NCBI GenBank assembly: GCA_017443265.1
Contig: JAFSOU010000069.1
Span: 1-64,000 of the forward strand
Source: Bacteroidales bacterium
GTDB taxonomy: Bacteria; Bacteroidota; Bacteroidia; Bacteroidales; P3
DNA length: 64,000 nucleotides
Direction of reading: 5' to 3'
Both the position numbers and the translations under genes were made by a program. Under the pieces are notes generated by a model. That model was not told the origin of the DNA. It did not search any database and worked only from the letters and a program-made list of their open reading frames with translations. This document shows, piece after piece, positions 17,778 to 55,344 of this stretch (position 1 is its first letter; every line of letters begins with the position of its first letter).

Positions 17778-19277
17778 CTATTTCTTCACCAGCCTACTAA
17801 CAGCAGTTCGTCCGTCGCTGGTGGCGATGCGCAGGGCGTAAATGCCTTTCGGCAGTCCCGAAACATTTATATCGAAAGCAGTGTGCGGAACCGCAATGGT
17901 GCGGCCTGATATGTCGATAGCGTAAACATTGTCGATGTGGCAGCCTTCAACCGTTACTCTGTCGGTGGCGGGATTGGGGAAAATCTTGATTTCGGTATTT
18001 TGGGCAGTGATGGTGACGTTTTCGCTTGAAAGATAAATAGTGCGGGTGAGAGTGTCGCTCAAACCTGTAGAGCCGCTGTTTGTAACCAGCGAAACGGTGT
18101 GCCAACCTTGGCTTGTCTCGATAACGGGGTTGCGTTGGTAGCAGAGACTGTTGGTGTCGAAAATCCAATGGAAGTCTTCGAGGTCGGGCAGAGAGGTATT
18201 GTCTGATGTGTCGAACAGTTGTGCGAGGTTGGTCAGACTAAGGATAAATGTATTGTTTCCAATGCTTTCCGCGGAATATGCGAAATCTGAGTGCGGGCGG
18301 CGCGGTACAGACTTGGAGCGAAATGTTCGGGTATTGCCGAAATAGTCGGTAACTTGGCACGAAAAGGATGCTCCTGCGGGAATGGTGACGGATTGTGCTG
18401 AGTCGAAAACGTCGGAAGGGGCGGAGTCGAGAAACCATTCGTATTTCATATATCCTTCAGGAGCGCGGAAAACAATACCGTTACTCATGGCCGGATTAGG
18501 CAAAGTAACAAGGGAAGAATTGTGGTAATTTACTGTATAATAAGAGTAGCCGCCATGATTATCACCGCCTTGCCCGCAGGAGAAAGTGGTGAAACGAAGT
18601 ATTATGTTTTTACCATGATAAGGACGAAGATCCAAATTGATGGGAGTCCAGTCGTGGAAGCCGCAATACGAATTAGCGCCAGTGTCCCACGCAAAATTCA
18701 AATAGCCTGATGAGCCGCTGCTTCTCGAGATGTTGCCGGTCATATCCAGATACCCATATTGATTCCCCGATGTGTCGAGTAGCTCCAAATATAGACGTTC
18801 TCTTTTGGTGGCAGGGTGTAAGTTTGTTTCGCCGCCTGAAACAAGGGTGGCGTTTATGGCCAGCATGTCGTTTTGAGTGGTGTCCACAGTGAAATTGTAC
18901 GCAATGGCCTGACATCTGTAGGCTTCGTACAAACTTCCCAATCGCACTGCCGAGGAGCTACCAAGTGGTATGCAGCGCAGTTTGAAATTGCTTGTGGTGT
19001 CGCGTGCGGCAGTGTCGGTGTGTATGGTGTGTCGGCTGCCGGTGTGATTATGCCATCCGTAGTCGTTAGGACCGTTGTCTATAACACCAATATTTGCGTA
19101 TGGTCCTTGGAAATTGCCGTTAGTGTCGTAATTGTTGAACTCTCGATAGTTGCCGTAGGTGCATAATACATTGCTTGCGTGCAGACTGTCGTAATTGAAA
19201 CGGCCTATGATGGTCTGGGCCTGCATGGAAAACAAGGACATTAAAACTATGGACAAAAGTGATACTATTTTTTTCAT
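17778..19277 (-). CDS. T9SS type A sorting domain surface protein
   Basis: A 499-residue exported protein. A signal peptide ends at Q-A-Q near residue 20. The C-terminal ~75 residues form a type A T9SS sorting domain: IKIFPNPATDRVTVEG, then the IDISGRTI strand, ending with LPKGIYALRI and a basic tail (RLVKK). This domain directs passage through the type IX system and attachment to or release from the cell surface. The centre has jelly-roll-like strands and a PKD-like region (about 330-420). No enzymatic motif is visible, so it may be a surface adhesin or binding protein. The start was taken at the ATG giving a proper signal peptide rather than 14 codons upstream. Confidence 0.85.
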   Translation of the reverse strand: MKKIVSLLSIVLMSLFSMQAQTIIGRFNYDSLHASNVLCTYGNYREFNNYDTNGNFQGPYANIGVIDNGPNDYGWHNHTGSRHTIHTDTAARDTTSNFKLRCIPLGSSSAVRLGSLYEAYRCQAIAYNFTVDTTQNDMLAINATLVSGGETNLHPATKRERLYLELLDTSGNQYGYLDMTGNISRSSGSSGYLNFAWDTGANSYCGFHDWTPINLDLRPYHGKNIILRFTTFSCGQGGDNHGGYSYYTVNYHNSSLVTLPNPAMSNGIVFRAPEGYMKYEWFLDSAPSDVFDSAQSVTIPAGASFSCQVTDYFGNTRTFRSKSVPRRPHSDFAYSAESIGNNTFILSLTNLAQLFDTSDNTSLPDLEDFHWIFDTNSLCYQRNPVIETSQGWHTVSLVTNSGSTGLSDTLTRTIYLSSENVTITAQNTEIKIFPNPATDRVTVEGCHIDNVYAIDISGRTIAVPHTAFDINVSGLPKGIYALRIATSDGRTAVSRLVKK

Positions 19278-19600
19278 GATTGTGTGTGTTATTTGTTTGT
19301 AATTTGTTTTTTTTGACACATATAGTTGCTTGTTTGCAACAATGGTGAGTAACTATGTTGAATTGTTGAAGTGTTTATTTGTTTAATTGAATATTGATTA
19401 AAAATAAATTTAATGTGTATCATTTTTTTGCAATGCGACGTAGAGTGTGTCCTTGTTGTGCATTTTTTTGTCGTCTTTTCTATTGCTGTTCAGTACTTTA
19501 TACCATCACATTGCACATAGTTGGTCATGTTTTGAATTATTGCAATGGCGATGTTTATAAAAAATGGTCGTTGTTTTTAGGAAAAACCGTTTTTTTTGCG

Positions 19601-49763: not shown

Positions 49764-49927
49764 ACGGCGTTGCATTTCTGCAACGCCGTTTCGCTATGAT
49801 AATAGAACAATGAATTCGATTTTTTGACACCATTTTGCCACACCTCCCTTTTCCATAACAAAAACACCTTGCAGCAAGGCTTGCATGCTGATACAGAACA
49901 AATTGCTCGGACAGATTTTTACAACCA
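49764..49927 (-). pseudogene. relic of a T9SS gene 3' end and terminator
   Basis: On the minus strand this stretch aligns base by base with the last ~40 codons, stop region and terminator of the T9SS protein gene at 52203-53174. The relic can be read as ICPSNLFCISMQ then LLQGVFVM, against ICPSNSFCISTQ then LQKGVYVL in the intact gene; the stop codon is lost and small indels shift the tail. The matching hairpin at 49764-49789 (11-bp stem, loop TTTC) occupies the position of the terminator at 52141-52174 but has lost its T-run. Upstream of 49927 the similarity ends. The intact gene's body is missing. Confidence 0.75.
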
Positions 49928-49982
49928 ATGTCTATCCAAAATTTTGTTTTGATATCTTTCTAATACTTTTTTTTTAAAAAAG

Positions 49983-52140: not shown

Positions 52141-52174
52141 ATAAAAATAAGGCGCAGCATGTAACTGCTGCGCC
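52141..52174 (-). terminator. terminator of T9SS/cobalamin unit
   Basis: A perfect 9-bp stem GGCGCAGCA/TGCTGCGCC (52151-52159 with 52166-52174). On the minus strand it is followed by TTATTTTTAT. It ends the two-gene unit controlled by the cobalamin riboswitch. Confidence 0.8.
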
Positions 52175-52202
52175 TCGCGCTAAGATAATGGAATAATGAA
52201 TT

Positions 52203-53174
52203 TTATTTCTTGACTAATTTTTTTGCCACGCGTCCAATTTTCAGCACATACACACCTTTCTGCAAATCTTGTGTGCTGATACAGAACGAATTGCTCGGGC
52301 AGATTCCTATAACCACAGACTTGCCGCTGAGGTCGTAGATACGGTACTCCTCCCCTACGGGCATTCCGGATAGCTGCACAAAGTCGCGGCAAGGGTTTGG
52401 ATAAACTTTCACGTCTGCCATTTCAGCCATGCTTATGCTCTGTGCGCGCTGATTGATGACGGCCACGCCTGTTAGGTCGAAACCGCCGGTGTTGAAAGCC
52501 GTGGGATAGGGGTCGTTCACAATATTGCCGTTGGCGTCGTAGGTGCAGTACTGCGGATTGATGGTGCCTATGCAGTCCACCAGACGCACGTGGGTGATGT
52601 TGTTTATGTCAATTCCCGTGCTGTCGGCAAGTTCTTCCAAATCGAAAGGCGTTCCCCAGCCTATGCGGTATTTGCCGGCAAGGTTGTTAATCAATGTAGG
52701 ATCCATGTTACTGACAAAGCTACCCACCTGCGACGCTGTAGGAGTGTTCGATATGGCGGGGAACCGCACGTAGCGCTGCCCGTCGGAGCTAACCTCGACG
52801 AAAGCCAGTTCAAGGAAACCGTCGCCCCAACCATTCTCATACACGGCAAAGTCGGGACCTTGGCCGTTGGCTATCGGCGTGGCAAAGGTAAGCACAGCCA
52901 CCCCGCTGTCGCCAAGACTCACGGCTTCCATAGTGTTGCTTGCCGTAGCCGGGCCTATTCCCACTGTGTCGGAGCCGAAACTGGCCAGTGTGCGGTTGTT
53001 GGCTATGTCGTAGTAGCCGCGATAAACGGTGCAGTTTGTCGCCCAATCCACTATGCGGCTGTCGTTGTACTGTATGGCCTTGCAGCCCGCAGTACCCACC
53101 GCACCGTCAAACTGGGCTGTGGCTGCACCGCAAACTGCGAACAACAATAACGCTTCTATAAGGAATCGTTTCAT
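52203..53174 (-). CDS. T9SS-sorted surface protein in cobalamin unit
   Basis: A 323-residue exported protein. A signal peptide ends at A-T-A-Q near residue 21. The body (about 30-235) has the pattern VSLGDSGVAVLTFATPIANGQGPDFAVYENG and LELAFVEVSSDGQRYVRF, recalling a family of Bacteroidota cell-surface proteins often found near vitamin B12 genes; this is from memory. The C-terminal ~70 residues are a type A T9SS sorting domain (VKVYPNPCRDFVQLSG, IYDLSGKSV, LQKGVYVLKI, basic tail). It begins 13 bases after the repeat protein gene, behind a cobalamin riboswitch, so it is expected to be made when B12 is scarce. It may bind or capture corrinoids at the surface. Confidence 0.82.
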   Translation of the reverse strand: MKRFLIEALLLFAVCGAATAQFDGAVGTAGCKAIQYNDSRIVDWATNCTVYRGYYDIANNRTLASFGSDTVGIGPATASNTMEAVSLGDSGVAVLTFATPIANGQGPDFAVYENGWGDGFLELAFVEVSSDGQRYVRFPAISNTPTASQVGSFVSNMDPTLINNLAGKYRIGWGTPFDLEELADSTGIDINNITHVRLVDCIGTINPQYCTYDANGNIVNDPYPTAFNTGGFDLTGVAVINQRAQSISMAEMADVKVYPNPCRDFVQLSGMPVGEEYRIYDLSGKSVVIGICPSNSFCISTQDLQKGVYVLKIGRVAKKLVKK

Positions 53175-53187
53175 TTTAGTTACAATG

Positions 53188-54876
53188 TTATTTTACAATA
53201 AGTTTGGTGGTTTTGGCGGAGTCGTTGTTGCGAACGCTCACAAAATATACGCCTTTCGGCAAAGCCGATACATTGACGGTGTAGTTGCCGTCGTTTTCGG
53301 CGTCGGTTCTGTAGAGCTCTTTTCCGCAAACGTCGAGCAGCACGATTTGAGTGCCTTTGCCGGTGCCTTCAACTGCGATGGTGGCCTGTGTGGTGGCAGG
53401 ATTGGGATAAACGTTGAAATCGATAGCGTCGGCAGTGGCCAGACCTTGCTGCTGAGGAGCCGAAACAGGAGTTATGCGTGTCGTCCAAACCACATTAGAG
53501 GGATAGCCCCAAGCGCTGTCGTTGGCAAAACCGACACTTTCGTCGCCGAATTTCACGAAATCGCCGTTTTTAACGTATTGTTCGCCGAAGCCCAGCTGGG
53601 CCATATCGCCGTTTACGTTGTATGTCCAATAGTTGCCTGCAAGTTTCAGTGTGTCGGCACCTGCGAGGAAATAGATGTCGATCAGGTACGGGCCGTAGCT
53701 TCCCATCAGTGAGTCGAAGCTGAAACGCGGGTCGGCGGCTTGTATGTCGTTCATCATATCGGAAACGAGCACGCTGTCGGTGCTGAAACGGTAGCCCCAA
53801 GCAAGGCAGGTGTCGGGGTTGGCCCAGTTTACTGCAAACACCACTTCGTTGCTGCCTGTGCCCACCCAATAAACGATGTCGGAAGCGTCTATTTTGGCAT
53901 CGGGCACATAAACAGGGGTAACGGTGGTGGTCCAAGCCACATCGGAGGGATAACCGTAAGAGTTGGTGTCGTTTACTATCTGTATCGACTCGTCGCCCCA
54001 TTTCACGAAATCGCCGTCCTTTACATACTGCGAGCCGAAGCCGAGTTGAGCCATGTGGCCGTTGACGTTGTAACTCCACCACATTCCGCTGAGTTTCAGT
54101 GTGTCGGCAGGGCCTTTAACGTAATAGATGTCGTTGAGCATAGGTCCCCAGCTGCCCATCGAGGAGTCGAAGCTGAAACGGTAGTCGGCGGCTTGTATGT
54201 CGTTCATCATATCGGAAACGAGCACGCTGTCGGCGCTGAAACGGTAGCCCCAAGCCAGGCAGGTGTCGGGGTTGGCCCAGTTTACAGCGAAAACAACTTC
54301 GTTATTGCCGTTGCCCACCCAGTATTTGATTTGTGCGGGGTCGATAGTGGCGTCGGGTATGGCAGCTCCGGCGGGAGGGTCAACGGGAGTTACGGTCTGC
54401 GACCATTCGTAAACCCATGGCCAGCCCGATGTTTCGGTATATGTAGCCACATCGGCATCGCCCCATTTCACAAAGTCGCCGTCCAAGACATATTGTTGGT
54501 TGTATCCCCAGTTTGCGAGGGAGCCGTTTACATTGTACATCCAAAAGTTATTCTGGGATGTAAATGTGGTACCACTTACGGGAGTGAATGTGATGTTGTT
54601 AAGCACGCCGGTCGAGCCGGAGTAGCTGAAACGGGAGTCGTTGGCGGCTATGGAGTCCATCATTTCCTCCACGGTGATGCTGTCGGCATTGAAACGGTAG
54701 CCCCAAGCCAAGCAGGTGTCGGGAGAGCCGAAATTGACGGCAAAAATCACTTCGTTGGAACCGCTTCCAATCCAATACCTTATCTGGCTTGCCGAAATGG
54801 TGGCATCGCCACTTTGTGCGAAAAGTCCGGCTGCAAAAGCCAGCGAAAAACAAAAAATGATAAGTTTTTTAAGCAT
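53188..54876 (-). CDS. T9SS-sorted protein with three tandem repeats, B12-regulated
   Basis: A 562-residue exported protein. After a signal peptide (to about residue 20) come three tandem repeats of roughly 140-160 residues. Each begins D-A-x-I with an IxYWxGxGxNEVxFAVN strand, then PDTCLAWGYRF, an ADSV-type segment, a hydrophobic aromatic block with Y-N-V-N-G, and ends with DGDFVKWGD. Repeats 2 and 3 are more alike than repeat 1. The last ~75 residues form a T9SS type A domain (FNVYPNPATTQATIAV, LPKGVYFVSV). The repeat family is not known to me as functionally assigned. As first gene after the cobalamin riboswitch it is a good candidate for corrinoid capture outside the cell. Confidence 0.83.
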   Translation of the reverse strand: MLKKLIIFCFSLAFAAGLFAQSGDATISASQIRYWIGSGSNEVIFAVNFGSPDTCLAWGYRFNADSITVEEMMDSIAANDSRFSYSGSTGVLNNITFTPVSGTTFTSQNNFWMYNVNGSLANWGYNQQYVLDGDFVKWGDADVATYTETSGWPWVYEWSQTVTPVDPPAGAAIPDATIDPAQIKYWVGNGNNEVVFAVNWANPDTCLAWGYRFSADSVLVSDMMNDIQAADYRFSFDSSMGSWGPMLNDIYYVKGPADTLKLSGMWWSYNVNGHMAQLGFGSQYVKDGDFVKWGDESIQIVNDTNSYGYPSDVAWTTTVTPVYVPDAKIDASDIVYWVGTGSNEVVFAVNWANPDTCLAWGYRFSTDSVLVSDMMNDIQAADPRFSFDSLMGSYGPYLIDIYFLAGADTLKLAGNYWTYNVNGDMAQLGFGEQYVKNGDFVKFGDESVGFANDSAWGYPSNVVWTTRITPVSAPQQQGLATADAIDFNVYPNPATTQATIAVEGTGKGTQIVLLDVCGKELYRTDAENDGNYTVNVSALPKGVYFVSVRNNDSAKTTKLIVK

Positions 54877-55120
54877 AATAATTTAATTTTGAAGATTTTA
54901 CAAATGCCGTAGCATTGAAACACGATGGCAACGATACAATGGCGAATACGGCGTCGGATGCGACATAACCGCAAGACACCATGTTTTTTCCCATCATTGT
55001 TTTTCCGTGCGACAGCATAAACTATTTTGACTTTCTAACTCAAAACAGCTTTCAAAAAATCAAGAAAAAAAATCGAACATTGAAGTGTTGTCTTTTTTTC
55101 AAGCTCTTTCCTCGAAAGCT

Positions 55121-55290
55121 TTTCAAAAACGAAAATTGGCAGGTCTTCTGACTTACTCCATCGTTTTCCGGCCTTCCCATCCGCAAAGGACAGTGGCGGG
55201 GTTGGAAACGACTTTGGCGGAGCTTACAGCAGCGGGACTGTCCGGGATTTGCACCCGATTCCCTTTTAATCGTCGTCGGTTTTTGAAACC
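55121..55290 (-). promoter_or_regulatory. cobalamin riboswitch
   Basis: On the minus strand this is a full B12-sensing aptamer. The closing stem pairs 55279-55288 with 55121-55130. In order it contains GGGTGCAAATCCCGGACAG, GCTGTAAGCT, the B12 box GCCACTGTCC followed by GGGAAGGCC, and AAGTCAGAAGACCTGCC. All are conserved landmarks of the family. It sits about 245 bases before the start of the tandem-repeat T9SS gene and should repress that two-gene unit when cobalamin is abundant. The 54877-55120 stretch between aptamer and start codon contains no gene that I see. Confidence 0.93.
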
Positions 55291-55313
55291 TCAAACGAAC
55301 CAAATTCGGACTG

Positions 55314-55344
55314 CAAAATTACAATTTTTTTTTCGATTGGCAAA
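55314..55344 (-). promoter_or_regulatory. promoter of riboswitch-controlled unit
   Basis: On the minus strand TTTG (55344-55341), a 19-base spacer and TAATTTTG (55321-55314) match the Bacteroidota consensus. The transcript would start just before the riboswitch closing stem. Confidence 0.82.

Follow-up and report, generated by a model that had tools for sequence, protein, structure and literature searches.

A two-gene unit behind a cobalamin riboswitch in the genome of a Bacteroidales bacterium is very likely a cobalamin-repressed vitamin B12 capture unit, whose proteins would leave the cell via the type IX secretion system (T9SS) and pass their catch to BtuB-BtuG. The RNA switch, the type IX export and the transcobalamin-like and BtuH-like folds of the two products together make genes A and B look like B12 catchers.

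Riboswitch, genes and export signals of the unit

The window, i.e. the whole stretch of 64,000 nucleotides that was analysed, carries on its minus strand from 55344 to 52149 a complete two-gene unit of promoter, riboswitch, gene A, gene B and terminator with the following features:

55314..55344 (-), Bacteroidota-type promoter TTTG-N19-TAATTTTG, exact match to the pattern
55121..55319 (-), cobalamin riboswitch aptamer RF00174, 112.6 bits, E 2e-27, model positions 1-189 of 189
54877..55120 (-), leader from the aptamer to gene A, hairpin no better than shuffles
53188..54876 (-), gene A, 562 aa, with Sec-type signal, three DUF4430 repeats and T9SS type A tail
54355..54807 (-), DUF4430-type repeat 1 of gene A
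53902..54354 (-), DUF4430-type repeat 2 of gene A, used for the structure model
53464..53901 (-), DUF4430-type repeat 3 of gene A
52203..53174 (-), gene B, 323 aa, with Sec-type signal, BtuH-like beta-sandwich domain and T9SS type A tail
52434..53117 (-), BtuH-like domain of gene B, from family alignments
52149..52176 (-), intrinsic terminator at the end of the unit, 11 pairs then ATTTTT

The first-pass annotation had described a complete cobalamin riboswitch on the minus strand with a consensus promoter before it, and both could be confirmed. The aptamer fits the covariance model over its full length (1-189) with 112.6 bits compared to a gathering score of 31.5 bits for RF00174, and the promoter (55344-55314, minus strand) is an exact match to a pattern that is found twice in the window versus 0.27 matches expected by chance. 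A search for an expression platform in the leader 54877..55120 (minus strand) gave no canonical terminator, and the best hairpin there has a z of -0.66 against shuffles. By analogy to the btu operons in Bacteroides, the RF00174 riboswitch would put genes A and B, which are separated by a gap of only 13 nt, under the control of cobalamin. The genes flanking the unit (OmpA-like, short lipoprotein and OstA-like) are not B12 genes according to Pfam. That the unit itself is free of B12 genes, as had also been stated, holds for btuB and btuG, neither of which was found in it by Pfam on the window genes, but not for genes A and B, which by fold and context appear to be B12 genes themselves.

Both genes indeed end in the T9SS sorting domains ascribed to them before, as TIGR04183 (T9SS type A tail) was found with 50.4 bits in gene A and 36.9 bits in gene B at a cut-off of 23, and PF18962 lies over its gathering score in both (54.1 bits in gene A). 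An N-terminal hydrophobic signal is present on both products, and the genome encodes the T9SS channel SprA (SprA_N 538.5 bits, 2447-aa frame). From these tails and this machinery, export of both products via T9SS is predicted. Two other regions of the window also show T9SS-type sequences. At 17778-19319 (minus strand) a further T9SS-tailed protein of 513 aa is encoded that has no relation to the riboswitch. At 49833-49937 (minus strand), 2.3 kb downstream of gene B, a short fragment with an in-frame stop matches the T9SS tail of gene B with 57% identity over 35 aa; it probably is either a leftover of a different, decayed T9SS gene or derives from a copied end of gene B.

Predicted folds of the two products

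PF14478 (DUF4430) was found in three stretches of gene A with 62.6 bits (cut-off 23.8), and in a family search of the whole genome these repeats are the sole DUF4430 matches. Repeat 2 was modelled from 82 aligned repeats of related loci, and the structure reached a pLDDT of 95.8. In the VIA-align comparison the top 15 rows for this model belong to transcobalamin, intrinsic factor and haptocorrin plus one Ruminococcus DUF4430-type structure, all with Z 10.5-12.3 and rmsd 2.3-2.6, compared to Z 6.3 for the next unrelated fold; for 2bb6 a Z of 12.3 was obtained over 98 residues with an rmsd of 2.3. PDB sequence searches with gene A and its profile gave only T9SS-tail or chance matches. The insertion of a beta-hairpin behind the helix defines the transcobalamin-like clade (Burroughs et al. 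2007, PMC1796856), and this trait of the beta-grasp fold is present in the model, where helix 46-56 is followed by the hairpin strands 60-67/70-81. In the beta domain of transcobalamin this hairpin touches B12, and the isolated TC-beta binds cobalamin (PMC5599065).

The repeats of gene A therefore resemble the beta domain of animal transcobalamin, intrinsic factor and haptocorrin in their fold, including the hairpin after the helix, and in a PF14478 match above cut-off, but they differ from these carriers as tandem repeats in a bacterial T9SS cargo with only 12-18% identity and without the alpha/alpha toroid. No Pfam match for an alpha toroid domain was found in gene A, which consists of three repeats and the tail and is thus called transcobalamin-like and not a transcobalamin. 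As transcobalamin uses both the alpha toroid and the beta domain, the affinity of gene A may be lower. Burroughs et al. (PMC1796856) already predicted bacterial transcobalamin-like proteins of the DUF4430 and SLBB type to bind B12, and gene A shares with them the secreted or surface DUF4430 domain and the predicted B12 binding. Their proteins were described from low-GC Gram-positives, planctomycetes and archaea, and neither T9SS tails nor cobalamin riboswitches nor partners of the BtuH-like kind were described with them. Based on the computed fold and family, the repeats of gene A are predicted to hold corrinoids.

For gene B, no named family was found outside its tail in the Pfam or TIGR-type libraries searched. 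A model of its domain from an alignment of 66 sequences (pLDDT 93.7) is closest to residues 318-593 of BtuH2 of Bacteroides thetaiotaomicron (7biz; Z 11.8, 157 residues, rmsd 3.2), which binds B12 via its C-terminal domain (PMC8941943). The second structural match is the BtuH part of BtuG1 (8blw, Z 10.8), and PAPP-A (Z 9.5) and carbohydrate-binding modules (Z 8-9) follow in lower rows. A fold search against viral structures gave nothing informative. Neither gene B nor its profile retrieved 7biz from the PDB sequences (phmmer/hmmsearch), all matches being to T9SS tails or by chance, and the link between gene B and BtuH was obtained only via the fold comparison and a BtuH profile. With this profile, made from five BtuH sequences of which one was confirmed against 8blw and 7biz, the relatives of gene B come up as the next matches (best E 1.2e-6), and the profile-profile comparison of both families gave an E of 1.4e-6 over just 35 columns. 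Common to both is the motif SLG-x-GG...LTF...PI-N...DF...EN-x-F, and the B12 contacts Asn399/Phe401 of BtuH2 align with the invariant N95 and the aromatic residue at position 97 of the gene B family; the contact segment Trp577/Leu578 has no aligned counterpart in gene B. Because of the short shared motif and this unaligned segment we named gene B BtuH-like and not BtuH. Its fold and family make the domain a second predicted corrinoid holder. According to Pfam, gene B consists of signal, one domain and tail, and lacks the PKD/Ig-like N-terminal domains and the lipoprotein signal. It was rejected as a DUF4465 (BtuJ) protein, as PF14717 matches neither gene A nor gene B, and as a BtuG protein, for which there is no Pfam match either.

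Adhesins commonly bear T9SS tails and beta-sandwiches like that of gene B also occur in the carbohydrate-binding modules, and one might therefore regard A and B as structural or adhesive surface proteins that bind no corrinoid and are regulated by cobalamin merely by happenstance. We consider this highly improbable, as both proteins have B12-binding domains as their top fold matches, ahead of the carbohydrate-binding modules, and as the coupling to proven B12 binders is conserved in many genomes.

B12 loci in this and other genomes

The genome-wide questions were answered by family searches. The second and only other cobalamin riboswitch of the genome leads a separate locus with a BtuB-like receptor and a BtuG-like propeller, the latter with a lipobox-type signal. 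Names read from the sequences point to a methylmalonyl-CoA mutase and a lysine-5,6-aminomutase-like subunit as cobalamin-dependent enzymes, and CbiC, the sole step of de novo synthesis looked at, was not found in this draft genome. In view of the cobalamin enzymes, the missing CbiC and the separate BtuB-BtuG locus, the organism uses B12, probably cannot make the corrin ring itself and encodes its import receptor elsewhere.

Of 295 genomes sampled evenly across the order, 89 have the gene B domain and 35 the gene A repeat. Reading the DNA context around 82 gene B loci of this sample, with riboswitches called by motif scan and Rfam, revealed a same-strand upstream cobalamin riboswitch at 68 of them compared to about 0.5 expected by density, and a chance association of riboswitch and gene B was thus rejected. 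One further locus has a cobalamin riboswitch downstream only. BtuB is found at 55 and BtuG at 51 of the 82 loci, DUF4430- or DUF4465-type genes at 62, and gene B itself bears a T9SS tail at 79; the labels for BtuB, BtuG and DUF4465 derive from small home-made profiles that were spot-checked with Pfam. Close to one gene B locus (L223:853-936, minus strand) there is a group II intron match.

At least 524 relatives of gene B are present in the genome collection. Among 80 named loci from it, mainly from Bacteroidales but also from Flavobacteriales, Chitinophagales and others, gene A repeats occur at 49, being fused to the B domain in 32 of these, and DUF4465 at 13. The motif scan found a riboswitch at 53 of the 80 loci, which is a lower bound as this conservative scan missed many Rfam riboswitches (Rfam detected one in 30 of 43 loci scored empty). 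In the stretch covered no riboswitch was found at L290 and L297, which have A-type matches and tails. In the close relatives L037 and L038, gene B is 83-84% identical to that of the window and the order riboswitch-A-B is kept, with four repeats. L026 and L041 are examples with A-B fusion homologues, and homologues of gene B also occur in the culturable, T9SS-bearing Brumimicrobium oceani (L090) and Mariniflexile gromovii (L108).

Neighbours and fusion partners of the gene B relatives are DUF4430, DUF4465, BtuG and BtuB. DUF4465 proteins (BtuJ), which adjoin or are fused to some of these relatives, are high-affinity B12 binders (PMC12751083, PMC13398666), and single-domain DUF4430 genes adjoin cobU/cobT-type genes or come directly behind riboswitches. 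This linkage also bears on the ligand. Instead of cobalamin, the repeats might bind some other small ligand needed when cobalamin is short, such as a corrinoid precursor or a metal complex. DUF4430 does occur in many bacteria without a tested ligand, and the solved DUF4430-type structure 3u7z is annotated just as putative metal binding. We nevertheless regard a ligand other than cobalamin as very unlikely given the linkage to cobalamin riboswitches, BtuB/BtuG and DUF4465, and to cobU/cobT-type genes in other genomes.

The frequent fusion of A and B hints that a single B12 may be gripped by both domains. It is conceivable, if rather doubtful, that the exported strings of transcobalamin-beta domains and the often fused BtuH-like domain form a two-domain clamp on B12, in which the BtuH-like domain replaces the alpha toroid. 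If true, the clamp would represent a widespread class of surface B12 capture, and bacteria would have their own counterpart to the B12 carriers of animals.

Several loci show other variants of such genes. Single-domain secreted DUF4430 proteins, some of them apparently lipoproteins, are located near cobU/cobT/cobQ-type genes and BtuG in L008, L011, L012 and L014, and their sequences suggest a non-T9SS form of the transcobalamin-like catcher. In L287, L293 and L294 a BtuH-type protein itself has a T9SS tail; its gene belongs to a riboswitch unit with BtuB-BtuG, and its neighbours are very large proteins of several domains, which include DUF5074, Ig-like and DUF4430-like parts. T9SS-tailed BtuG-type beta-propeller genes lie alongside the usual BtuG in L202, L242, L263, L289, L293 and L294, and the propeller catcher seems to exist also in a T9SS-exported form.

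BtuH, BtuG and BtuJ are surface lipoproteins of B. thetaiotaomicron (PMC8941943, PMC10404256, PMC12751083). Genes A and B share with them the predicted control by a cobalamin riboswitch, the predicted surface capture of B12 and the association with BtuB; gene B has the fold of the B12-binding domain of BtuH, and many of its relatives have DUF4465 (BtuJ) in the same unit. In contrast, they carry a T9SS tail and not a lipoprotein anchor, gene B is devoid of the N-terminal PKD/Ig-like domains of BtuH2, and DUF4430 repeats are not described in those Bacteroides loci. B12 capture led by riboswitches, export by T9SS and DUF4430 as a fold that binds B12 are all known singly. The literature searched, which covers few subscription journals and preprints, contained neither the three in combination nor a BtuH-like domain together with DUF4430 repeats.

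Proposed mechanism and significance

When cobalamin is scarce, the riboswitch would permit expression of genes A and B. Both products would cross the inner membrane via Sec and the outer membrane via T9SS and then remain on the cell surface or be shed. Outside the cell the three transcobalamin-beta-type domains of gene A and the BtuH-like domain of gene B may hold corrinoids, which would be handed to the BtuB-BtuG receptor behind the other cobalamin riboswitch of the genome. The imported cobalamin would supply the cobalamin enzymes of an organism that is probably unable to make the ring. The accessory catchers here have T9SS tails, while BtuG, judged from its signal, appears to stay a lipoprotein.

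Corrinoid-binding A and B proteins could also serve competition, being shed via T9SS in order to lock B12 away from neighbours or to strip host or microbial carriers, with the return to BtuB being secondary. T9SS cargo can be released, each gene A molecule has several repeats, and in the window genome the unit is physically separate from btuB/btuG. Yet most relatives with complete context have these genes together with BtuB and BtuG in one unit, as fits uptake, and we regard a competitive role as unlikely.

The preferred reading, T9SS-delivered capture that feeds BtuB-BtuG, agrees with one of two roles offered in the first-pass annotation, as the transcobalamin-beta-type gene A, the BtuH-like gene B and the B12 locus conserved in many genomes support corrinoid capture. 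Nothing was found in favour of the other role, corrinoid-dependent surface factors. The proposed separation from the lipoprotein route is only partly right, as BtuB and a BtuG-like lipobox protein are encoded in the same genome and many relatives have T9SS proteins, BtuB and BtuG in one unit, which argues that T9SS capture feeds or supplements BtuB/BtuG and does not replace it.

In summary, genes A and B together look like a widespread and apparently undescribed means of extracellular B12 capture. With them, bacterial DUF4430 repeats and the widespread unnamed domain of gene B gain a function that can be tested, and T9SS export is tied to the competition for a vitamin. B12-capture modules that are lipoproteins in Bacteroides are suggested to be delivered by T9SS in many other Bacteroidota, and the fold with which human transcobalamin and intrinsic factor grip B12 would be placed on the surface of gut-type bacteria under B12 control. 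This bears on the origin of the animal B12 carriers as well as on B12 competition in gut and rumen communities.
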